A stretch of DNA of 64,000 nucleotides from Plumapathes pennacea. Lineage: Eukaryota > Cnidaria > Anthozoa > Antipatharia > Myriopathidae. The position numbers and the translations under genes were made by a program. The notes beneath the pieces were generated by a model that had not been told where the DNA came from, did not search any database, and saw only the letters and a program-made list of their open reading frames with translations. The stretch's first letter is position 1; every line of letters begins with the position of its first letter. This document shows, one piece after another, positions 10,773 to 62,184 of the stretch. Where the stretch lies: positions 21,882,331-21,946,330 of the forward strand of contig OZ038465.1 of the NCBI GenBank assembly GCA_964036295.1. The letters are read 5' to 3'.

Positions 10773-11525
10773 ATTTAATGGATACCGCTACTGGATTGCA
10801 AATATCTCTGTCGCCGCTAATTATTTAGTCCTGACGAACTTTCTGTGGCGAAACGAAATTTCTTTGGGAAGATACCAGGCCGAAAACGGACACCAGTGCC
10901 ATGACGAACTTTAACAGTAAACAATGATGATTTTAACATGCATTTACACTGTATATGACATCTGTTGCCACGTACATACTGTAGCTGTTTTGTAAAGTTT
11001 TTTTTTGCCAAAAGTATATCCGTTTTCGTGACGAAAATACACATTCTCGCGGTTTAAGAACTACACAACGCTGCTCTGTAAATATATTAAATGTTTGTGC
11101 TGCGCGCGAACGTGACAGTTGTCAAAATGCTTTGGCTTATCGTACTGTACCTGTTGAAATATTTCTTCCATTCGATCATGTAACCTTTGTTTCGCAGTAG
11201 TAATTGTATACTAGAAATGAAAACTACACCGAAATAGTCCTTAGCTTTGAGTTTGTTAGTCACAAATGACTGAATACGCTGTGAACAAAACGGCAATAAT
11301 ATTGTAAAGTCTCGTGCTACTTTCCTTGCTGTCAATTATATTTTTTTACGGAGCGGGAATGCTTGAAAGCCTCATAGAAGAAACGCATTCAGTAAAAAAT
11401 GTATATAAGTATTGAAGCGGAGGCTAGATTATCGTGGCCTCTGATTAAAAATAAGTGTTTAAAATCAAACTGCATGTCAAAATCGACTGAGCATGAAAAG
11501 ATAAGTCACGCATTATAAGAGACAC
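10773..11525 (+). repeat. Repeat R, copy 2, right half
   Basis: Continues R from the ATT duplication: ATTTAATGGATACCGCTACT, CGCCGCTAATTATTTAGTCC, GAACTTTCTGTGGCG, then GTTGAAATATTTCTTCCATT and the region ending near AAAGATAAGTCACGCATTAT. More diverged than the copies at 37 kb. Confidence 0.75.
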
Positions 11526-24787: not shown

Positions 24788-25997
24788 TAGGCTGCGAATA
24801 GAATACAGCCGTCTCCCGTCGGACAGCTTGTTTGAGCCCCCAGAGACAGACGTCTGCGTTGCGAGCCGAAAAATTCCATACTGGTGACGTCACCCCCGTC
24901 CAGAATCCGGATAGACGCTGTGAATGGTCAAGCGAAATTTATTCGCATAAATTATTCTTAAATAGTCATCATGGCGGAATACGCGGACGACGTTCCACGT
25001 GTAAATCTATCTTGGGATGTTTTTCGCAAGTGTATCGATTCTCTTTGCCCAAAGCTTAACGTAACATCGTTGAGGGAGAATCAGCTTCAAGAACTGTATA
25101 GTTTTGTCTGTGGAGAAGAAGTTTTTGTATCTACCGACAGGATCGGGGAAGTCGGTGATATTCCACATGGCGCCATTGGTGCACACTTGGTTAGCAAAAA
25201 ATTCTGCGACTATTTATTCCAATTTGTCGTGGAAGAAAGATCCAATTATAGTGATCATATCCCCGCTTGTTGCTCTAATGCAAGATCAAGTAAAGAAGTT
25301 AAGTTCGCTGGGCCTCCAAGCTGCGTGCGTTGGAGGAAATCAACACTCGTCCGTTCTTCGGGATATCGAGCAAGGCAAGGTCACGTTCGTCTTCATGTCC
25401 CCAGAATCGACTCTTGCCTCGGAAAGATGGCGAAATGTACTTGCCAGTGACGTATACCAAGAGAACCTAATTGGAATAGTGGTGGACGAAGTGCACTGTG
25501 TGACAGAGTGGGGTACGTCTAACAACAACGAGAAGAAGTCGGCCTTCCGGCGCTGGTACAGCCGTTTAAACGAACTAAAATTGCTCGTGTATGATGTACC
25601 ATTTCTTGCACTCACTGCAACAGCGACCAAGAAAACCAGGGACAAAATCTTTGAGCTACTGGAATTCAAGTCACCGAAGGAAGTGTTAGAATGCCCAAAT
25701 AAGCCCAACGTGAGATATTCAGTACAGAAACTGGATAATTCGCAGCCTATCATTGAAAATTTCCATGGCATAATTCTGGAGCTTCGACTGAAGGGCAAAG
25801 AAACAACCAGGACAATATTTTTTTGCCAGACTGTAAAGCACTGTTATTTACTGTTTAAAATGTTTGAATAATTATTTCCATATTTTCGGTTTGAGGGTGA
25901 CATCACCAGTATGGAATTTTTCGGCTCGTAACGCAGACGTCTGTCTCGGGGGGCTCAAACAAGCTTCCCGACGAGAGACGTCTGTATTCGCAGGCTA
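24788..25997. mobile_element. MULE-like element carrying a RecQ-like fragment
   Basis: Left end TAGGCTGCGAATAGAATACA and right end (reverse complement) TAGCCTGCGAATACAGACGT begin TIRs of about 110 bp. They share CAGCTTGTTTGAGCCCC, GACAGACGTCTGCGTT and ATTCCATACTGGTGA. Flanks are TAGCAAAAG (24779-24787) and TAACAAAAG (25998-26006), an 8/9 match. Long TIRs with 9-11-bp duplications are typical of Mutator-like elements. The cargo is a helicase fragment, not a transposase, so this is non-autonomous. Confidence 0.82.
24971..25871 (+). pseudogene. RecQ-like DNA helicase, truncated, frameshifted
   Basis: ATG 24971 starts MAEYADDVPRVNLSWDVFRK and reads through CPKLNVTSLRENQLQELYSF to CGEEVFV. The frame then slips near 25126-25134 to continue as YLPTGSGKSVIFHMAPLV. 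Superfamily 2 motifs follow: Walker A PTGSGKS, VIISPLVALMQDQV (Ia), VVDEVHCVTEWG (DEVH box, II), FLALTATAT (III), then TIFFCQTVKHCYLLFKMFE and a stop at 25871. RecQ enzymes unwind DNA 3' to 5' and need a second RecA lobe and usually RQC; here only the start of the second lobe remains and the right TIR begins about 25 bp later. The frameshift just before Walker A prevents a continuous protein. Related cnidarian copies are numerous. Confidence 0.85.
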
Positions 25998-30260: not shown

Positions 30261-30518
30261 TCTTGATGGGTGCATCTTGTTGTCCATCATCATCATAATA
30301 TTCTTTATTTCATCACGGAGTCTCATCATCCTATGTAATTAAGAAACTTACAGATGCTCTTCCGGAGAGCCGTGAAATATAATAATATAACAATATAAAA
30401 TATATTACAAAATACTTAAAATCTATATAATTAACTTAGTAATCGCCTAATTGCTCGCGGGCGTGGCCCGTCGAGCTTAAAATCACACGGCGTGTCTTTA
30501 TCGTCATGTTAGTTTTTT

Positions 30519-30998
30519 TCTGGGTTACGAATCTGCACACCATAATTGGTTCAGATTATCACGTGATATGCAATGACGTAATTGACTTCGAAACAACTCG
30601 ATTGTGGCAGCTCGGTACTTGTGTGTAAAAGTTAACTGCATTTAATCCAAACTCCACCGTTTGGGTTTGTGGTACACGCACTGATAAACTGGATGTTAGG
30701 GAACGATTTTGGCTTGCGTTCTTTAGTTCACCGCGGAAGCTTCGAGAATAGCCGTAAACAGATGTTTGATCAGATACCGCTGGGGGATTGCAAATATCTC
30801 TGTCGCCGCTAAATATTTAGTCCCGACGAAACTTTCTGTGGCGACACGAAATACTTCTGGGAAGAAACAGGCCGAAAACGGAAACCAAAGCTACGATGAG
30901 CTTTAGCCGCAAAACAATGGCGATTTATGCTTTACTCTGTTCATGACATCTGTTGCCTCATACGATTCTTCTGCTTATCGTACATTGCCTGTTGAAAT
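30519..30998 (+). repeat. Repeat R, copy 3, left half
   Basis: Starts TCTGGGTTACGAATCTGCAC and follows R to CATTGCCTGTTGAAAT, where the two-gene element begins. R resumes at 36267. A GC-rich stem (TGCTCGCGGGCGTGGCCCGT, from 30450) precedes it, as in other R copies. Confidence 0.85.
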
Positions 30999-31028
30999 CA
31001 TGGCCAGAAATATGCGACATTTGCGCCC
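30999..31028 (+). repeat. Left terminal inverted repeat, 30 bp
   Basis: Begins CATGGCCAGAAATATGCGAC and ends ATTTGCGCCC. Perfect inverted match to 36237-36266. Likely transposase recognition site. Confidence 0.9.
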
Positions 31029-31064
31029 GCGCGGTGGTCAGCGTTCAACTCCCGTGGTGTAAAC

Positions 31065-34000
31065 ATGGCGCCCAAGAAAATGTATGGAGACAAGTAAAAT
31101 AATAGAGATATATCGTCTTGTGTGATTGTTTTACAAAATGTCGGCATCAATAACGAATATAGTTCCCATAAGCTTTTAAAACATCTTACTTGCTTGAACT
31201 GAACAGCTTCCACCGCTCTGCTTTTTCACATGTATTTCTCCCCGTATCGGTCCCACACATTTCCTTATAAATCCTGTCCATACAGCACGGGAAGCGATTT
31301 TCAAACTTGCTTCGCGGAGCAGGTTTTCATTTTTTTGAAAATGTCGGCATCAGACTTCGCTGCTGAGTCGCCTCTGAGAAAGCTGGCCATAATTTCTTCA
31401 AATCTGTGGTCGTATCTTTCCTGCTTTTATCCAGAGAAAACGCTGCACATTTCGCTGGGACGCGGACATGATTAAAACCGGAAGTAGAGGATTGGCTCGG
31501 AGCGATATCGTCTCTCTGAAGTCCCTTTAGTTGGCGATATGTTCTCGAAACCCCAGCATGTTTGGTATCATAATAAAGCTCAGAAACCGCTCTTTTCGGG
31601 TTTGCACAGCACTCTGGGATCAGGACAAACTGCTGCGCACCCTACCCCCAAAGTATGTTTACTTCCGGTGCGAAAGCGGCAACTTCGCGCGCAAATTCGA
31701 ACATCGATGTAGTGCTATTAGGGCTGGAATGTCTGATTTACTTGGAGAATATTGCCGAAACAAATACACTCAAAGTATACATGTGTCTTCTGAGCACTGT
31801 CTTAAATATGTGAGACAACAATCGGTTTCTAGTGAGGACATTTGTTTCACTATTGAGATTCCGTACGAGATTCTCAAGGACTGGAAAGTGGATGCTGCAC
31901 ATCCGCTTACGTTTGTAGACCTGCTCAATGCTTTTATACCAGGTGAATCATTCAAGATTAAAAGCGAGAGAATCGAAAACAGGCTGCGTATAATTTGCTC
32001 AGAAGTTCGAAGGAAATTCAAGGGAAAGAATGGTGCTGCATTTAGAAGGATGATGCAAATGAAGAGTCGGCTGTCGGTTCGATGCGAAGACCTAGTGAAG
32101 GTAGACATGCTGGAAAAAAGAGTGGAGGAGCTAAACAGAGACAATTCTATGCTCACTGACAATAATGAGGACTTGCATGCAAGATACCAAGAACTGTACG
32201 GGGAGCTCACACAGTCAAGGGCCATGGAAACTGAATCCCTGAGAAAGCTGGAAAAGGCCAACGTTGACCTGGCAACCTCTCAACTCAGGAATCACAAACT
32301 GCATGAATACGTGGAGAAACTGGAACAGTTCGAGTACGAAAACACCGGGAAACCCATTTCCGACATTGGAGAACGACAACGGTATCGGAAACTTCGTGAA
32401 CTGAAGACTCGCACTCAGCAAGCGATGTGGTTTGTGGAGTCGTTCGGCCTGTCCTTGGATACTGTTTCCATGAAAGATAAAGAAGGCATGCAGTATACCC
32501 TATCTTACGCTGAAGAATCTGGGAAGAAATCGTTTGGCAATTTACCACAGGAAGAGCAGGAGAAAGTGAAGCAGATTCTGTTCTTATTGGACAAATTTTG
32601 TATAAGCGAGGCTGCCTACCATGAGATCACAATGCTACCAGAAGGTGAAGGTTTGCCAAAGTCCTACTTGGTGAGACAGTGCAAAGAAAATCTGAATGGG
32701 ATGTGTCACATAGAACGAACACCCGGATCAGCACCAGGTGCTCAACTTGATTTTGAGCAGGAGCTCAGAATTGCAGTACAAAAATTTGTAAGTATCTATC
32801 TACAAGCAGCAAATAGTTATTGCCCTAAAGTGAATACACTGCATGACATAATTGTTTTTGTTCCCAGTGATATATTGCTCCTCACATGTGACTGGAACAA
32901 TAAATTGGGCAACTTTTCTCTATTCAGGAAGGCCATTTTTAAATATACATTATGCCTATCATTATGTTTCTCAGGTGGCAGGAAAAAGTAGAGAGGAGAT
33001 ATCAAGCACAAGGCTACAAATAAAGATCAGTGGTGATGGAGCTAAGATGACAAGGCTGACAAATTTCATTCTTTTGTCATTTTCCATTTTAAATGAGGGT
33101 GAAGAAGTTATGTCCTCAAAAGGTAAATAACTTTGTTATAGTTGCCACAAAACAAATCTGGAACAATAGATATATGAACATACATCTAGGTTTGTAAGTT
33201 TACACCATTGTCTTTCAGGTAACTACACAGTTGCTGTAATTAAAGCACATGAAAGCTATGATGTCCTGAAATCATCTGGTGCTAAAATTTGGGCAGCAGT
33301 GAATAAACTAGTGAAAGCTGGGAAAATAACTATCAGAGATGGCAGTGATGATGTGCAAGTAGATTTCTTTCTTGGTGGCGACTACAAGGTAAACAGAAAA
33401 AACACACTAAATTACTGTATTGCTATTTGCATTCAATTTACAAGTATCAAGTTAACTCAAAGTTCCACAGGCAATTTAGCTCTTCTTTTTTTAGTTTCTT
33501 CTTCTAGCAATGGGGATGAAAGGAGCAACATCACATCATGCCTGTATATGGTTCAAGATACACAAAAAGGACAGGTTGGCATTTTTTATGACAAAAATAC
33601 AGACAAACATAGGCAACTCAAAATGCCAATGCTAACTAGCAACGTTTTGTTTTGAACAGGCATGACATGTCTTTGCCCATGGACCACTACTGGAGGGAAG
33701 ATGTTGCTCGAACACTTCAGGAGGTGAAAGAGTGTGCAAAGAAGAACCAGTATTCTTGTCAACACTGCCCACTCCTGGATATCCCCCTTGAGAATGTTGT
33801 TCTTGATGAACTTCACCTGATGTTAAGGGTCACAGGTAATATAGCACTTCATGATGGTGATCACCATAATAATAATTATTATTTATTGTTATGCAGCATT
33901 TGTAATATTCTAATATTTCTTGAACTTCTTGCCACAGATGTCCTTACTAAGAACCTGATCACTGCTGCCATTGAATGGGACTCTAGGGACAACCTTGGTA

Positions 34001-35110
34001 AGCCAAGCAGCCAAGCAGTAAGCCAAGCAGCCAAGCAGCAAACACCTTCATCAGGTAGTGACAGCCATTAAAGAATGTGGGGTATGTTTTGACGTATGGG
34101 AGAAGACGAATGCTGATGGCAGAGCTAGTGGCCTATACGACTGGACAAGCCTGATGGGTTCGGAAAAGAAATTGCTACTGAAGCACCTTTCCCAAAAGCT
34201 AAAGGCTGTCTGCAAACCAGAGACTGGGGAAACAGTATCGAAGATCTGGGAGGTACTGTAAACACAACTGTTGTATGAAACATTGCATGCATACATGATT
34301 TACATCCTACAATTTCTGCAGGACTTTGATGAGCTTTACGCTATCCTATCCAAATGGGAACTCTCAGAAGAAGAGATCAAAGCATACTTCATAAAGGTGA
34401 TCTTTTGAAACAGCCAGTGTCACTTATGTATTTTTAGCAATGATTCCCAAACTTGATTACAAATACTTGTTTATTTGCAGGCAAACAGATGGGTTTCCTT
34501 ATTTCTGTCACTAGCAGGAAAAGAGTTTGGCTATATCAAGGCAGCTATTACACCTTACATGCATGGAATGGTGTACCATGTCCCACTCTTCATGACAAGG
34601 CACAAGGGCATAAAGAAATTTACTGGACAGGGTAAGGAAATTACCATAAAAAGATGATCAATTTGCATATCAATCCAGTTCTTCAAATAGTTTCTCAGAT
34701 GTTTCGTTAAGGCATGTCTTGTATTGCAATTCAAAGGGGTGGAAAAAAACAATGACGATGCACGCAAAGTTCATCTGCTAAAGTCTAACAAGTGGGATGC
34801 GGCAAAAGATGTTCTGCAAGTCAGCAAGCGGATGTCCATGCTACAGGACCTTGAACGCACCCCCAACACATACACAAAGCGTAACGTTGACTACTGGGGA
34901 TCAGAGATAAAGGAGAAGCGATCTCAGAGGAAAAGAATTTGCACAGAAGCTCCTCCTGATGCTGAAGTTGGTGAATCTGGAGGCCCTAACATTGAAAACC
35001 TTTCAGCACAAGAAATTAGGGACAAACTTAAGGCTCTGGGTACAATAACTCGAGTGCGTAATCGTGTCAGGCTGCTTGAGCTACTAAGGGATGCCCTTGA
35101 TTCCTCTTGA
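31065..35110 (+). CDS. Orphan putative transposase, coiled coil + D-D-E-like core + SAP
   Basis: Probable exons: 31065-31093 (MAPKKMYGD, least certain), 31557-32787, 32975-33122, 33219-33388, 33495-33574, 33660-33835, 33938-34252, 34322-34396, 34481-34631, 34737-35110. All use GT-AG and intron phases match. About 915 residues. Residues about 190-290 form a coiled coil (MLEKRVEELNRDNSMLTDNN). Candidate acidic residues: IKISGDGAKMTR (about 441), FFLGGDYKFLLL (about 524), VLDELHLMLR (about 600), GVEKNNDDARK (about 794). A Cys/His patch (ACIWFKIHK) follows the second. The tail NLSAQEIRDKLKALG...RLLELLRDAL is SAP-like. A one-base phase error lies in an AGCCAAGCAG repeat (34001-34050). The catalytic role is inferred; relatives are known to me only as uncharacterised multicopy proteins. 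If exon 1 is wrong, the first ATG in frame is 31558. Confidence 0.75.
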
Positions 35111-35220
35111 AATTTCAAAGAACTGCATAAATTTCCAAATAACATGTAGTACAAAATTAATGCTGTACTGACTAGAGTTCCCTAAAATATGACCCAGGAT
35201 GACCAACCTAACTCGTGAAT

Positions 35221-36193
35221 CTACTGAAACAAATTTTCTACATTACATGGTCGCCTGGCAATAGTAACCTGTAATTTTTCTACTGGCAGCCTTGTTGCTT
35301 CAATTACTCTTTTTTCATGGATAATATGATGCTTTGGTGACCATGAAAGCAGTGGTTTGATTTTTAAAGGGAAATCTACTGCGACTCCTTCACCATGCTG
35401 ATCAAAGTAGTACCACCAATGCAGTGACAGTGTAGAAAACCTACTGAAATCTTCTTTTTGGTACAAATAGCAGCCAGCATCCCCACAAGGCTTCCCTTTG
35501 CCCCGTACTATATACCTCCATAAAGTAAGGCTAAAATTGTCAATGTGGGAGGGCAAGACAGACTTTGATTTGAGAGCAGACATTAGGCTGCTTTCGAAGG
35601 CTCTCGCAGCATCTTCCAAGTCCCTAACAGATGGCTTGGGAGGCCTCTCGTAGCTCCTGCAGGGACAGAATAATAGTTATTTATATTGCAAAACTGTAAA
35701 TTTCACTTGAAACAAAACTTTACTTGAAAAAAGAACGGAATCCATGCAAAGATTTCTTGACAAGAACTAGATGGTTAGACGGCGATACTATAATAACATA
35801 TATATACGTAGTTTAATGTGAGGTATAAGAAAAACATCAATGAGTTTTTGTAGACCTGATATTGAACTCACTTGAGCAATTCTTGATTTAAGTGATCAGA
35901 AGGCTCCCACGTGCAACTCTCGTACGGCCAGCCTTGCCATTTTATCAGGTATTCATAGTCCTGTGAAACATAGAAACAGATATCCCTTGAGCACAGTATT
36001 GGAATTATTTTACACGAACGAACTGAAGTGATATCATGAATAAAATACTCACGCGCTTCGTTCTCCTCCGTTCGATAATTCTCTCTGTGGGCCAAAGTCT
36101 CCCTCTGCTCCTTTTAGTCATATCATACAACACCACAGACGAAAAAGAATTCAGCTGAACATAATCCACTTCACTTCTTCGCTTGTCCGCCAT
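35221..36193 (-). CDS. Chromodomain protein, intact, 221 residues
   Basis: Three exons: 36193-36053, 35960-35872, 35656-35221; donors GTGAGT and GTGAGT, acceptors CACAG and CTGCAG, phases consistent and no stop. Start context AAAAATGGCGG. Residues about 34-75 form a chromodomain split by intron 1: WPTERIIERRRTKR joins DYEYLIKWQGWPY, then SCTWEPSDHL. The aromatic cage positions are W34, W55 and W58, so methyl-lysine binding is plausible. The remaining 145 residues (LTLWRYIVRGKGKPCGDAGC, LHWWYYFDQHGEG) match no domain I know. Chromodomains occur in integrases of some retrotransposons and steer insertion to marked chromatin; here it is a separate small protein convergent with the putative transposase and within the same TIRs. 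Targeting is inference. Confidence 0.88.
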
Positions 36194-36236
36194 TTTTTTT
36201 TGCGTGTTTTCTGTTGAGTGACCGCTGATCACAGTT

Positions 36237-36266
36237 GGGCGCAAATGTCGCATATTTCTGGCCATG
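36237..36266 (-). repeat. Right terminal inverted repeat, 30 bp
   Basis: Reverse complement identical to 30999-31028. The chromodomain start codon lies 43 bp inside it. Confidence 0.9.
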
Positions 36267-36814
36267 GTTTCTTTCATTCGATCATGTAGCCTTTTTTGCA
36301 ATGGTCATTGTATACCAGAAATGAAAAATACACCGAAATAGTCCTGAGTATTAAGTTTGCAGTCGCAAATGGACTGAACACACTGTGAACAAAATCGCAA
36401 TAATATTTTAAACATGTCTCGCGTTACATTCCTCGCTTTCAATTTTATATTTGTTATAAGCACGAATACTCGAAAGCCTAATAGAAGTGAAACGCATTCA
36501 GTTAAAAAACAAGACAGACTAGTATTGAAGCAAAGGCTGGATTAATCGTGGCCTCGAGGTCAAACTGTCAAAGACAAGTCACGCATTACTCAGATTTACT
36601 CGGTGGGTAACCGTTTCGCTTCTAAGCTCAAAATGCAGAGTCGCTCAACCTTTAAGAACCAAGTGTATGAGTGTTGTAATGATAGCCAAGTTCTCTATAC
36701 TGTGAGAAACTGGAAGTCTCCCGGTCTTCCGCTCTTGTCCTTGCTTTCCATTTTAGTTTATTCTGCTCTCGACCCAACTAACCGGCCGCGAGCTTACTGG
36801 CAACGCCAGTCTAG
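36267..36814 (+). repeat. Repeat R, copy 3, right half
   Basis: Resumes R at GTTTCTTTCATTCGATCATG and runs to CTGGCAACGCCAGTCTAG. The next R copy starts 15 bp later. Confidence 0.85.
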
Positions 36815-36828
36815 TTTTTATTTTTTTT

Positions 36829-38450
36829 CTGGGTTACGAATCAGCACACGGTGATTGGCTCATATTTTCACGTGATTTATGATGACGTTTTGTCATCACA
36901 TGACTTGCCGGGTGAGCAGTTTCGCCATTTTGAAGGAGATATGTGGGCGATAGAATTGTGCTTTGAGAATAGCCGTAAACAAATATTTGATGGTACCGCT
37001 GTCGCCGATAAATATTTAGTCCCGACGAAACTTTCTGTGGCGACACGAAATACTTTTGGGAAGATAACAGGGCGAAAACAGAAACCAAAGCTACGGTGAG
37101 CTTTAGCCGTAAAACAATGACGCTTTATGCTTTACTCTGTACATGACATCTGTTGCCTCATAAAATTCTTCTGCGTATCGTACATTGCCTGTTGAAGTGT
37201 TTCTTTCATTCGATCATGTAGCCTTTGTTTCGCAATGGTCAGTGAATACCAGAAATGAAAAATACACCGAAATAATTCTGAGGATTGAGTTTGCAGTCAC
37301 AAATGGACTGAACACACTGTGAACAAAAGCGCAATAATATTGTAAACATCTCTCGTGTGACATTCCTCGCTGTCAATTTTATATTTGTTACAGAGCACGA
37401 ATACTCGAAAGCCTGATAGAAAGAAACGTATTGAGTTAATAAAAGAAAACATATAAGTAGTGAAGCGAAAAAGTAAACTGCATCCCATTCAAACTCAACG
37501 CCATTTGGCTCTGTGAATATGCACGGATAAACTGGATTTTAGGAAAAGATTTTGGCTCGCGTTCACCGCACAAGCTTTGAGAATAGCCGTAAACAAATGT
37601 TTGATGGTACTTCTGGGGTATTGCAAATATCTCTGTCGCCGATAAGTATTTAGTCCCGACGAAACTTTCTGTGGCGACACGAAATACTTTTGGGAAGATA
37701 ACAGGGCGAAAACAGAAACCAAAGCTACGGTGAGCTTTAGCCGTAAAACAATGACGCTTTATGCTTTACTCTGTACATGACATCTGTTGCCTCATAAAAT
37801 TCTTCTGCGTATCGTACATTGCCTGTTGAAGTGTTCCTTTCATTCGATCATGTAGTCTTTGTTTCGCAATGTTCATTAAATACCAGAAATGAAAAATACA
37901 CCTAAATAATTCTGAGGATTGAGTTTGCAGTCACAAATGGACTGAACACACTGTGAACAAAAGCGCAATAATATTGTAAACATCTCTCGTGTGACATTCC
38001 TCGCTTTCAATTTTATATTTGTTACAGGGCACGAATACTCGAAAGCCTGATAGAAGAAACGTATTGAGTTAACAAAAGAAAACACATAAGTAGTGAAGCG
38101 AAGGCTGGATTAATCGTGGCCTCTGATTAGAAATATGAGTCAAGGTCAAACTGTCATAATCGATTGTGCATAAAAAGATATGTCACGCATTCTCAAGATG
38201 CAGGGTCGCTCAACCTTTAAGAAGCAAGTGTACGAGTGTTGTAATAATAATTTTTAGTTTAATCAAGGTGTCAAAAGAGCAAGGTGTCAAAAGCCAAGTT
38301 CTCTATACTGTGTGATATTTTTATGGTGAGAAATTGGAAGTCTCTCTTGGGAGTTCCGCTCTTGTCCCCTACTTTCCATTTTATATTCTGGTCTCGACCC
38401 AACTCACGCCGCGAGCTCACTGGCAAGGCCAGTCTAGTTATTTAAAATCT
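36829..38450 (+). repeat. Repeat R, copy 4, internally duplicated
   Basis: Starts TCTGGGTTACGAATCAGCAC. The block from GAGAATAGCCGTAAACAAAT to AAACGTATTGAGTTAAYAAA occurs twice (about 36966-37440 and 37580-38075), as in copy 1. It ends near GCCAGTCTAGTTATTTAAAA, where a LINE 3' end abuts. Confidence 0.85.
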
Positions 38451-38510: not shown

Positions 38511-39740
38511 CTATAACCTATAACTGGTTAATAAACTGCGCAATACCAGAGGCATTGCATTGGTCTGTAATAGACTGTTCCATAGTATAGCCCCTCTGTA
38601 TGAAAAGCTTTTTTTTAAGGCTTCAGTATTAGGTCTTGGTATAAAAAGACTATCGCCAGATCGGCGCAGGCCATATGCATGTATATCACTAGTTTTAGTA
38701 AATAGTTGGGAAATATATTGTGGAACCTGGTTATTCATGGTTTTAAACATAATGGTAGCTAGTTGCTGGCGGCGTCTTTCCGCCAGGTCTTTCCAGCCTA
38801 GATTGTTGAGAATATCTTTCGATCTGGTGTCATAATTTGAGTGAGTAATGATTCTGGCTACCCTATTTTGGAGTATCTGGGCCTTTTGGGATAAACATTT
38901 GCCCATTGAGCCCCATACAGTACTACAGTAGTCTAGGTAGGGAGCAATTAAAGAATTGTAAATAGTGATTAGTGTATTTTTCGGTACAAATGGCCGGAGT
39001 CTTCTCAAAACACCCAAACCTTTTGCAACTTTTTTTGAGATAATATTGATGTGAGATTCCCATGTGATTAACTCATCAATATATACGCCTAGACATTTGT
39101 AGGTTTTGACCCTTTCTATTTGGCAACCATTTACGCTGATATCCGGATTTTCTGGGATCAGACCAAGCCTCTGGCGTGTACCCAAAAACATACACTTAGT
39201 TTTCGTGATATTCAGACTAAGTCTATTCGCACTGAGCCAAGCATGTACATTTTTAAGGTCGTTATTGATAGTGTGGGATAACTCATCCAGGCTGTTAGAG
39301 GCATATGTGAGACTTGTGTCATCCGGGTACATACGAACATTTGATTCCAGATTAGAGTTTGGTAAGTCATTGATGTACAGGAGGAAAAGCAAGGGGCCCA
39401 GTATGGACCCCTGTGGGATGCCGCATGTGACTACATTAGAATCAGAAAGAACGCCATTTACCATGGTTCTTTGTGATCGCTGCGACAGGTATCCTGAGAA
39501 CCATGATAGAGTTTCGGGCTGCACGCCATAAAGCTTTATCTTAGCGGTCAATATAGAATGGTCAATCGTGTCAAATGCCTTTTTGAGGTCTAAGAATAAA
39601 ACAGCATTAATAAGGCCATTATCGATATTGATAAACCATTCAGTTGTGATATCTAGTAAAGCTGTTGTCCGCAGCATTCTGAGTAATCTTTTTGCTTTTC
39701 TCCTCAAATGTTGAGTAACACTGTTGCTAATTTTTAGCGC
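38511..39740 (-). pseudogene. LINE reverse transcriptase, 5' truncated, one long frame
   Basis: A 398-residue open frame (39707-38511) carries reverse transcriptase motifs in order: VLFLDLKKAFDTIDHSIL, CGIPQGSILGPLLFLLYIND, MYPDDTSLTYASN, LSLNITKTKCMFLG, KCLGVYID, APYLDYCSTVWGS, LQNRVARIITHSNYDTRS and FSYRGAILWNSL, ending at a stop near 38511. The catalytic YADD box reads YPDD, with both aspartates kept but Ala replaced by Pro. Upstream of residue 1 the expected fingers are frameshifted (QHLRRKAKRL). No endonuclease domain is present, so the copy is 5' truncated as usual for target-primed insertion. CR1/Jockey-like. The best preserved LINE of the window. Confidence 0.88.
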
Positions 39741-51114: not shown

Positions 51115-51640
51115 TTCGAACACTTATTTCTAATCAGAGGCCACAATTAATCCAGCCATAGCTCCGATACTTATATGTTTTCTTTTTACTGAATGCGTTT
51201 CTTTTATTAGCCTTTCGAGTATTCGCGCTTTGTGGCAAATATAAAACTGAAAGCAAGGAATGTGACACGAGAGTTGTTTACAATAATGAATATTCTCGCG
51301 GTTTTGTTTCACAGCGTGTTCAGTTCATTTGTGACTAACAAATTCAATGCTTAGGGCTATTTCGGTGTGTTTTTCATTTCTAGTATACAGTTACCATTGC
51401 AAAACATAGGCTACATGATCGAATTGAAGAAACATTTCAACAGGCACTCTATACGATAAGCCGAAGCATTTTGACGGCACAGGCTCGCAGTATGATGCAT
51501 GTAATATGCTCACAAAAAAAAACTGTACAAAACAGCTAACAGTATGTATGAGGCAACATATGTCATGTACAGTGTCAAATGTTACGGCTAAACAGTCATC
51601 GTAGCTTTGGTGTCTGTTTTCGGCGAAAAACAAGCCAGAA
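51115..51640 (-). repeat. Repeat R, copy 5 fragment (shows an empty site)
   Basis: Reverse complement contains AGTGCCTGTTGAAATGTTTC then TTCAATTCGATCATG, the uninterrupted counterpart of the junction at 30998/36267. Confidence 0.75.
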
Positions 51641-52084
51641 ATTTGAGCGAGACACGAGCAAGACGGAGCTCAGCAATGAGCGATAATTAATGGGCGATAA
51701 CTGAACAAGAATTGAGCGAGACACTTGACTGACCGTGACATATGGATGGCTTGTTTCTGGCGAGTATATCGCCCGTCATTGGACTCATTTTTTCTACGAG
51801 ATTATCGCCTGTTATTTGACTTATGTATCACTGGTAAACAAATGGAGTTCACATGCGACGCGTTCACATAACCAACGACACAGCAGAGTTGATTCAAAAT
51901 TACAATTTAATTATATATTGATCTCTTAAGACAGTTGTTCAAAATACAATGAACTGTCTCAGTCGTCAAACAATATTGGCTAACATATCACATCACATCG
52001 ATGATAGTGCCACGAGCAACTACTATGAATACATATACAGTGTAGATCCACCAGATGCCTTAATTTGTATGTGGTTGGATTTTA
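51641..52084. other. Spacer, no gene recognised
   Basis: Short repeats of TTGAGCGAGACAC and GCGATAA near 51640-51725; nothing else supported. Confidence 0.35.
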
Positions 52085-53030
52085 AATAAACAAGACTGGT
52101 TGCCAGTGAGCTCGTTAGGTGGGGTCGAGAAAGTAGGGAAAAGAGCGAAACTCCCAAAAGAGACTTTCAGTTTCTCACCAGAAAAATATCACACAGTATA
52201 GATAACTTGACTTTTAACACCTTGCTCAAATGAAACCTATTGGTATAAATTGTCATTAAAACACTCGTACACTTGCTTCTTAAAGGTTGAGTGATTCTGC
52301 ATTTTGACCTTTGGAGTGAAAAAGTTAGCCCGCAAGAAAAGAGTAAAGCGTGACTTATCTTTTTATGCACAGTCGATTTTGACAGTTTGACTTTGAAGAC
52401 TTATTTGTAATCAGAGGCCACGATAAGCTAGCGTTTGCTTCAATGTATGCTTATGTATTATTTTTTTAGTGAATGCGTTTCTTCTATGAGCCTTTCGAAT
52501 ATTCGCGCTCTGTAACAAATATAAATTGAAAGCGAGGAATGTAACATGAGACTTGTTTGCAATATTATTGAGGGTTTGTTCACAGCGTGTTCACTCATTT
52601 GTTACTAAAAAACTCAATGTTCAGGACTATCGGTGTATTTGCTCGCGGCGAGCTGAAAAACGGAGTTTGTGTGTTCGTTTTCGTTCCTTTTTCTGGGTCG
52701 AGAATCAGCACACGGTGATTGGTTCATATTACCACATGATATGCCATGACTTAAATTGACTTCGCGAAACAACTCGAGATGTGGTCAGCCGAATTGCTCG
52801 TTACTTGTGTGTAAAAGTTAACTGCATCCCATCAAAACTCAACACCATTTTGCTCTGTGGAACATGCACGGATAAACTGTATTTTAGAGAACGATTTTGG
52901 CTTGCGTTCTTAAGTCCACCGCGGAAGCTTTGAGAATAGCCGTAAACAAATGTTTGAAATACTTCTAGAAGATACCAGGCCGAAAACGAAAACCAAGACA
53001 ATGATGAGCTTTAGCCGTAAAACAATGATC
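52085..53030. repeat. Two repeat R fragments, head to head
   Basis: 52085-52660 reads in minus orientation (from AACAAGACTGGTTGCCAGTG). 52695-53030 reads in plus orientation (from TCTGGGTCGAGAATCAGCAC). Confidence 0.7.
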
Positions 53031-55379: not shown

Positions 55380-56385
55380 CGCTCTTAAGAAGCAAATTCA
55401 TGGTGAGTGTTGTAATGATAATTTATAGTTTATTCAGGTTTTATTTGAGCGAGATGTCAAAAGTCAAGTTCTTTATACTGTGTGATATTTTTCTGATGAG
55501 AAACTGGAAGTCTCTCTTGGCAGTTCCGCTCTTGTCCCTACTTTCTATTTAGGATATTCTGGTCTCGACCCAACTCACGCCGTAAGCTCACTGGCAACGC
55601 CAGTCTAGTTTTCATTTCTAGTATACAATTACCACTGCGAAACAAAGGCTACTTGATTAAACGGAAGAAATATTTCAACATACATTGTACGATAATCCGA
55701 TCAAGCATTTTGACAACTGTTACGCTCGCGCGCAACATAATACATGTAATATTTTCACAGAGACGATTGGTCGAGTTTTAAGTCATGACAATGAATATTT
55801 TTGACACAAAAACGGATACACTTTCGGCGAAAAAACTTTCCAAAACAGGTACAGAATGTACGAGGCAACAGATGTCATGTACAGTGTAAAGCATACATCA
55901 TTGTTTACGGCTAAAGTTCGTCATGGCTTTGGTGTTCCGTTTTTGGCCTGGTATCTTCCCAGAAGTATTTCGTGTTGCCACAGAAAATTCGTTGGGACTA
56001 AATAATTAGCGGCGACAGAGTTATTTGCAATCCTGTAGCGGTAGTCATTAAATATAGTCGAATCAATCAAACGTTTGTTTACGGCTATGACGGTGACCTT
56101 AAGAACGCAAGCCAAAATTGTTCCCTAAAATCTAGTTTATCCGTTCGTGTTCCACAGAGTCGAATGGCATTCAGTTTGGTTGGCATAGAGGTAACTTTCT
56201 ACGCAAGCATTAACGTACGATTCAATCGACTAGATCTCAAGTTATTTACGAAGTCACCTCACGCCATCACATATCACGTGGCAATGTGAGCCAATTACCG
56301 TGTGCTGATTCGTAACCCAGAGGAAATTATAAACACACGGCTTGTGGTTTTAAGCTCGTCGGGGCCACACCCCAACGAGCAGATA
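55380..56385. repeat. Repeat R fragments, tail to tail
   Basis: 55395-55612 is an R 3' end in plus orientation (to GCCAGTCTAG). 55613-56330 is R in minus orientation. Its reverse complement near 56041-56070 reads GATTCGACTATATTTAATGA, the empty site for the Harbinger insertion. A GC-rich stem (GCTCGTCGGGGCC...CCCCAACGAGC) follows at about 56355-56385. Confidence 0.75.
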
Positions 56386-60899: not shown

Positions 60900-62184
60900 T
60901 CCCCAAAACGCGAGCAGAGATCCAACGAGCCTATCGCCAGAAAAAACAACAATAGGAAGGGATAACGAAAGCGCCTTGAAAGACACGGGCTGAAATTCAA
61001 AGAGAATATAGAGAAAGAAAAAAGCAAACAGATAGGAAAGGATATGAAGAAAATGAAAGAGAGCGGAAGCGGCGTGCATACATTCCAACGTCCTTGTTAG
61101 ACGAAAAGGTGCAGGCACGTTTTCCGAATTTGCATGCAATAGTCCAGATGGACTTTGTCGAAAACTACACCTGCCAGTCCAACGAGGAGGTACAGCCGGC
61201 CTACTGGAATGCGTCAATGGTAACGCTTCATCCATGCGTTGCGTACTTAAAGTCCACTGAGGGCGAGTTAAACCACTTTAGCAGAGTTTTTGTCTCAGAT
61301 GAGCTTGGTCACAACTCTGCTACCGTATTTGCGATTATCAAGAGGCTCATGTCGGAAATGAAGGAAACATCGCCAGGCCTTCAGCACGTACACTACTACA
61401 CCGACAGCCCAACCTCCCAGTACCGCAACAAAACGATGTTTCACATCGTTAGCCAACATGAAAAGCTTTTTGGTGTCACTGCATCCTGGAACTTCTTCGA
61501 AGCAGGTCATGGTAAAGGTCATTGTGATCGCGTTGGAGGGTCAATGAAGCGCATGGCCGACGAGGCTGTGCGACAACAGAAGGCAGTCATTCAAGATGCT
61601 GCCGACTTCTTTGCATGGGCAAAATCTGGGCACATGGCAAAAAGTTCAGTTTCGTTCTACTTTGTCCCAAAGCAAGACTGCCAGGCTGCCAACCAAGAAA
61701 TACAGCATTTCGGGAAAATCAAACCTGTTCCTGGGACACTGAAGCTTCACGCAGTTGCGGGAGATCTACAAGAGCCGGGAAAAATCATCGCAAGAGAACC
61801 TCGTGTCATTGCGAACAGTGCTTCAACGGTGAATCATTTAACCGCGATTCACCATGCAAGTGGTCAACGCATATTCTGAAGGAACCCCAAATCCCAGGTG
61901 TGATTATACCAGCGACAGGTGACTGGATTGCCGCAGTTTACGACGATAAGTGATACGTGGGCGAAGTCCTTGAAGTTGACAAAACTGAAGGCGACGCCAA
62001 CGTATCTTTCATGCATTCGTCTTCAAAAAATGTAGCCATGTTGAAGAAGCCGAACCAACCAGACGAGTTGTGGGTCATGTTTGGTTCGATACTTGCCATA
62101 TTTGAGCCTCCATGCCCCCACGGAAAAACGCGCAGGCAGTTCAAGGTAAACAGTGATACTGTGGACAACATTAAACAGCTCTAA
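60900..62184 (+). pseudogene. Orphan transposon protein (DSPTSQYRNK family)
   Basis: A basic leader (TRAEIQRAYRQKKQQ, stops, TRAEIQREYRERKKQTDRKG, then RKRRAYIPTSLLDEK) precedes a long frame to TGA 61877-61879. Counted from 61094, it carries VQMDFVENYTC (D20), YYTDSPTSQYRNK (D104), FFEAGHGKGHCDRVGGSMKR (E136, D145) and QDAADFFAWAK. After a frameshift near 61805 it continues with SCHCEQCFNG and TGDWIAAVYDDK, a stop where Trp is expected, then VGEVLEVDKTEGDANVSF and PDELWVMFGS to TAA at 62184. I know the family only as repeated, uncharacterised animal proteins. The spaced acidic residues would suit an RNase H-fold nuclease, which is inference. Two leader stops, a frameshift and one nonsense change make this copy dead. 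Confidence 0.75.

Follow-up and report, generated by a model that had tools for sequence, protein, structure and literature searches.

The RAG1 recombinase cuts antibody genes; among the chromatin-reading partners of RAG1-type recombinases the best known is RAG2, which has a PHD finger. The ends of Transib transposons start with CAC. In the parts of the literature drawn on here, RAG-like (RAGL) transposons carry convergent RAG1L and RAG2L genes (with one algal case that is not convergent), ends resembling recombination signal sequences (RSS) and 5-bp target duplications, and the PHD finger of their kelch-PHD partner can read methylated H3K4 (Martin 2020, PMC7204232; Tao 2022, PMC9435367; Kapitonov and Koonin 2015, PMC4411706). 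Transib elements carry a single gene and duplicate 5 bp (Martin 2020, PMC7204232). For the CMCT clade, i.e., EnSpm/CACTA, Mirage, Chapaev, Transib, Plavaka, ESTA and Lanisha, the stated duplication is 2-5 bp; CACTA, Mirage, Chapaev and Transib have CxxC and H(3-4)H motifs in common and mostly CA..TG ends, and EnSpm ends are CAC..GTG (Kojima 2025). The word chromodomain is absent from the main text of that paper. In chromodomain Gypsy elements (chromoviruses) the chromodomain is fused to the integrase of a long terminal repeat (LTR) retrotransposon (PMC12477816). Here we describe a DNA transposon from the anthozoan Plumapathes pennacea. It occupies positions 30999-36266 of a 64,000-nucleotide stretch, hereafter the window, which is part of contig C4 (genome, 290 Mb in 24 contigs). 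With a probability of about 0.8 we take it to be a cut-and-paste transposon of the RAG1/Transib/CACTA (CMCT) group which encodes two convergent proteins, one of them a chromatin-reader partner. The ends, a matching flanking base at most insertion sites, a RAG1-like core and the recurrent convergent pairing of both genes are read directly from the sequence. The element probably belongs to a distinct lineage of the RAG/Transib/CACTA group in which a transposase is paired with a chromodomain protein, and it is plausible that this group is undescribed.

Two perfect 30-bp terminal inverted repeats (TIRs) enclose 5.2 kb. The left repeat, CATGGCCAGAAATATGCGACATTTGCGCCC, begins with CATGGCCAGAAAT and lies at 30999-31028 (+), its perfect inverse at 36237-36266 (-). 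A first-pass annotation of this DNA had given exactly these outer limits, together with two convergent spliced genes and a flanking repeat that rejoins cleanly. All of this is correct: both repeats are present, the transposase gene (+) and the chromodomain gene (-) stand tail to tail, and empty copies of the flanking repeat agree with the joined flanks. A 27-bp TIR pattern, used genome-wide with up to 3 mismatches, finds 18 sites and its reversed control none; a wider end pattern, CATNNCCAGAAATNNCGGACAT, finds 1,521 sites with up to 2 mismatches versus 2 for the reversed pattern. Thus, the TIRs are not a chance feature, nor are they found only here, an outcome the annotation had considered.

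The transposase resembles RAG1. When the transposase of a related element, L060 on contig C10, is compared with the PDB, RAG1 is the top match (E 0.045) and the alignment is ungapped from VTPYMHSLVYHVP to GVEKNND over RAG1 ITNYLHKTLAHVP to GNESGN. A core profile of seven rows, two of which (window and L063) come from manually spliced sequences, has five PDB matches: lancelet RAG1L (E 0.0025), a ribosomal protein (0.21) and three RAG1 entries (0.25, 0.67, 0.67). The conserved residues in L060 are D223, D304, C323, C326, H548, H553 and E573; the C(2)C and H(3-4)H motifs, C323-x2-C326 and H548-x4-H553, are therefore present between the second aspartate (D2) and the glutamate. The distances from D2 to the cysteines (19 and 22), from His to His (5) and from His to Glu (20) equal those of RAG1, for which we take D708, C727, C730, H937, H942 and E962 as the corresponding residues. 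E962 is also named in titles of PDB entries among the structure matches. The three acidic residues align in L060, the window copy and L063, are collinear with those of RAG1 and are predicted to be catalytic. The predicted structure has a confident insertion domain, for which RAG1, RAG1L or Transib fill the 28 best rows of the structure comparison. Judged from alignment and model, the window transposase is probably RAG1/Transib-like with a DDE core. What had been called an orphan D-D-E-like protein is of the D-D-E type, but the PDB, profile and structure comparisons deprive it of its orphan status. The motif DELHL, initially placed in the D-D-E series, follows CxxC and corresponds to the ALH region of RAG1; the second catalytic D is that of GGDYK.

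The transposase gene of the window spans 31558-35110 (+). Exon 1 (31558-32788), taken from the first ATG of the open frame, encodes a coiled-coil N-terminal part. Exon 2 (32975-33122) holds the predicted catalytic D1 (GDG, codon 33035-33037) and exon 3 (33219-33388) D2 (GGDYK, codon 33380-33382). Exon 4 (33495-33574) encodes the first zinc Cys (33543-33545) and, at the second position, a Phe (33552-33554); LDELHL, not a catalytic D, is in exon 5 (33660-33835). Exon 6 (33938-33997) has a putative 3' junction beside a 20-bp tandem duplication and exon 7 (34040-34252) a putative start, 34059 being one possible acceptor. Exon 8 (34322-34396) is followed by exon 9 (34481-34632) with the zinc His codons 34562-34564 and 34577-34579 (HxxxxH), and exon 10 (34738-35110) holds the predicted catalytic E (GVEKNND, codon 34742-34744) and a SAP-like tail. 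This tail, already recognized at first pass, is supported in L060 by a Pfam SAP match (E 2e-4), which at 21.3 bits lies below the curated cut-off of 23.9. In Pfam the window transposase itself has two weak matches only, both to coiled-coil families. Between L060 and the transposases of diverged families (window and L063 types) identity is 41-49%. The C(2)C and H(3-4)H motifs are kept in L063 and L049; in the window copy the second Cys is lost. In L060 most of the transposase (L060:2924-5005, -) is in one intronless frame, whereas the window copy has about nine introns, which indicates intron gain or loss within the group.

The partner gene, 36193-35221 (-), has three exons and is convergent with the transposase gene. 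Exon 1 (36053-36193, -) encodes a conserved N-terminal motif and the start of the chromodomain, exon 2 (35869-35960, -) the remainder (EYLIKWQGWP...TWEP), exon 3 (35221-35656, -) a C-terminal domain of 144 aa. The chromodomain (Pfam Chromo, E 2e-14) is Polycomb/HP1-like and the places of the aromatic cage are kept. The predicted model of the C-terminal domain is confident, and the structure comparison gave no recognizable fold; the Pfam scan of the partner gave no kelch or PHD match. The domain is kept across diverged relatives, among them L041, L042, L044 and L048, and on the strength of the model it is a candidate for a new domain. Fifteen other loci with the chromodomain gene were compared, all outside the window family. 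In 11 of them transposase sequence adjoins this gene, in every case convergently. The chromodomain gene is a separate partner of the transposase, as the first-pass annotation had it, and a recurrent one; as a rule the genes are not found apart, which it had named as a finding that would speak against such an element.

The termini were compared at many insertions. In a search with no CAT in the pattern 17 of 19 ends read CAT, the exceptions being L011 and the left end of L014. Another 29 pairs of ends, from short derivatives, also have CAT, but here the search pattern itself contained CAT. The ends read CATNNCC, i.e., CA..TG termini of the CMCT type are present. The 29 pairs stem from 40 sampled derivative loci after exclusion of 11 with one end missing (L066, L073, L074, L076-L081, L086, L091). 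In 26 of the 29 the bases just outside CAT and just outside ATG are the same; the best of 63 other offsets reaches 13. Among nine further sites L060, L063, L010, L011, the L012 group and L015 agree, and L009, L017 and L018 disagree. Overall, one outer base matches at 32 of 38 insertions and no second base does. Shuffled pairings of the 38 sites gave a mean of 10.3 and a maximum of 24 in 100,000 permutations. The 38 sites were hand-picked from 66 end pairs, which included inner pairs and repeated copies from overlapping loci; one outermost pair was kept per insertion, and L012, L013, L014 and L016, which have common flanks, were counted once. Several families that have diverged from one another, of the window, L060 and L063 types, combine CAT ends with a matching outer base. 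In the DNA compared, 6 of the 38 sites have empty paralogues, and at three of these the filled site is longer by one base (L012 group, 1 of 1 window match; L101, 5 of 6; L104, 6 of 6). These comparisons indicate that a one-base duplication is usual in the group, not universal, and that the window copy is without it.

The window copy was inserted within an interspersed repeat, which makes up its right flank (36267-37767). Paralogues without insert (window 37157-37240, 37791-37874 and 1042-1125; a further one in stretch L059) run uninterrupted across the site and reveal its state before insertion. The empty paralogues read GTTGAA(A/G)TGTT, the filled site GTTGAAAT/CAT...ATG/GTTTC, and the joined flanks, GTTGAAAT plus GTTTCTTTC, are identical across the junction to the L059 paralogue. 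The repeat has many copies in both orientations in the window, e.g., 468-1562, 10781-11441, 30509-30997, 36267-38442, 51137-53028 and 55497-56372. The derivative insertions L101 and L104, outside the window, also sit in copies of it.

A number of results weigh against a RAG1-related, regularly paired system with one-base duplications. The RAG1L profile score is composed of two collinear stretches, neither of which reaches significance by itself (E 3.5 and 8.1). The transposase model has a mean pLDDT of 49.4, with residues of about 391-530, the insertion domain, mostly confident. The structural test for an RNase H fold proposed at first pass brought a RAG1-like insertion domain; D1, D2, the Cys pair and E are in parts below 50 pLDDT, so that the confident model does not extend to the RNase H fold. 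Chance can give helical matches such Z values, and Foldseek found no match of the model at E 0.001 (best 0.019). The complete Pfam results for the window and L060 proteins include no transposase family, and none is among 25 of the 29 Pfam families listed for six members. Four of the 15 chromodomain loci showed no convergent transposase; for L041, the transposase pieces in the longer stretch L059 are all on the same strand. Outer bases are unlike at 6 of 38 sites, the window copy included. The empty-site comparison gives no extra base for the window copy (7/7) and L063 (4/4); one of the six window matches for L101 disagrees with one added base, and the filled site of L018, the left end of which is uncertain, is two bases longer than its empty paralogue.

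Could the element belong to a Repbase-catalogued EnSpm/CACTA, Mirage or Chapaev family of the usual kind, with the chromodomain gene as a family-specific extra and the 1-bp duplication as a local oddity? The DDE core, the C(2)C and H(3-4)H motifs and the CA..TG ends are those of the CMCT clade. The motifs and ends are common to CACTA, Mirage, Chapaev and Transib in the consulted part of Kojima 2025, so the motifs alone do not single out RAG1/Transib; further, PDB comparisons may favour RAG1 and Transib since their structures are solved. On the other hand, the one-base duplication at most sites differs from the stated 2-5 bp. The recurrence of CAT ends and matching outer base in diverged families argues against a local oddity, and the full Pfam lists of two members contain no CACTA transposase profile match, where HMMER filters drop weak matches. 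EnSpm/CACTA proper differs by CAC..GTG termini and a 3-bp duplication (2 bp in some elements). We consider such an ordinary family unlikely.

A true RAGL transposon with a highly diverged RAG2-like second protein we regard as very improbable. The likeness, e.g., to lancelet ProtoRAG, is considerable: a RAG1-type core with CxxC and HxxxxH zinc residues, TIRs, a second gene which in most RAGL is convergent, and a histone-reader domain in the second protein, as far as this is covered in the excerpts of Martin 2020. The partner, however, consists of a chromodomain and the 144-residue domain of unmatched fold instead of kelch and PHD, the duplication is 1 bp and not 5 bp, the ends read CATNNCCAGAAAT in place of the RSS-like CAC heptamer, and the transposase has a SAP-like tail. 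Transib differs by its single gene and 5-bp duplication. Chromodomain Gypsy elements also encode a chromodomain; in the TIR transposon described here it is not fused to an integrase but stands in a protein of its own. Judged by the defining sequence features, the element resembles a RAG-type transposon with a reader subunit, yet is not a member of RAGL or Transib. Neither a RAG-like transposon with a chromodomain nor a 1-bp duplication of this kind was found in the literature searched, outside of which were most subscription papers and Repbase. Titles and the beginnings of abstracts on chromodomains with transposons contained nothing fitting.

The short derivatives and the state of individual copies bear on activity. 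The DNA search yielded one other long copy, C3:10206401-10211430, which is 92.5% identical to the window copy over 5,050 aligned bases (MAFFT; 88% with BLAST). Shorter, non-autonomous elements on C1, C4, C8 and C10 match the left 0.7 kb entirely or over some of its length (window 31000-31682, +; 82-96% identity), and most have the right end as well. Typing took in the first 100 listed of the 1,521 TIR sites (C1); among these a derivative of about 768 bp with ends CATCGCCAGAAATTCC is commonest. It corresponds to the two-gene element of L063 type with an internal deletion, its two ends having 92% and 95% identity to that element. The full-length copies examined share 94.6-99.7% identity with a single reference copy, suggesting that they were amplified recently. 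The family looks young and abundant, and active elements may still be in the host.

The window copy itself is probably inactive, judged by its sequence. Phe replaces the second Cys of the zinc motif (33552-33554), where the other long copy and the aligned relatives have Cys, and a 20-bp tandem duplication (33998-34037) lies at an exon junction of the transposase (region 33997-34059). A frameshift at 33997-34040 is possible but need not be assumed, as several GT-AG joins, e.g., 33997 to 34059, would preserve the frame. All three exons of the partner gene are open. The term complete, used at first pass, thus applies to both ends and both genes, not to the zinc site and this junction. Similarly, "autonomous or recently active" fits relatives such as the L063-type derivative better than the window copy with its damaged zinc site. 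L060 has all transposase motifs in a 693-residue intronless frame; this copy may be broken too because its N-terminal part is in another frame. The window also holds a retroelement near the transposon (38514-39740, -; 409-residue open frame, reverse transcriptase domain, Pfam RVT_1, E 9.6e-21), an open frame of 265 residues that contains a DEAD-box helicase domain (25074-25868, +; E 2.8e-16) and a 299-residue open frame without Pfam match at E 0.01 (60980-61879, +).

How might the two proteins act? The first would be a RAG1-type transposase with a coiled-coil N-terminal part, a DDE core, a CxxC/HxxxxH zinc site, a helical insertion domain and a SAP-like tail. Such an enzyme would bind to the transposon at its CATNNCCAGAAAT ends and cleave adjacent to the terminal CA/TG; joining to the target would be staggered by one base, which in most cases gives a 1-bp duplication. 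Staggering by one base is not reported for the CMCT group in the literature accessible to our search. The second protein would combine a chromodomain of the methyl-lysine-reader type with a new C-terminal domain, which may bind the transposase or the transposon ends. By analogy it could tether the complex to marked chromatin, as suggested for the RAG2 PHD finger in RAG elements. Alternatively, the chromodomain protein may be an anti-silencing factor or an end-binding helper for synapsis that does not guide integration. The C-terminal domain, kept across diverged relatives and with no assigned function, is compatible with such a role; the kept aromatic cage places and the Polycomb/HP1-like chromodomain fit histone reading. 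We consider this alternative possible but rather doubtful. That the element represents a superfamily-level RAG1-related lineage, in which the chromodomain partner is an independent RAG2 counterpart that steers the transpososome to marked chromatin for one-base staggered integration, is a tentative proposal with chances slightly below even.

The one-base duplication, outside of the stated 2-5 bp, raises the question of how the active sites are spaced on the target DNA. With a chromodomain as its reader, in the tail-to-tail layout known from RAGL elements, this RAG1-related transposase gives new material for comparing how RAG-type recombinases acquire partners that read chromatin. If the partner indeed guides integration, RAG1-type enzymes would have come to be paired with separate histone readers more than once.

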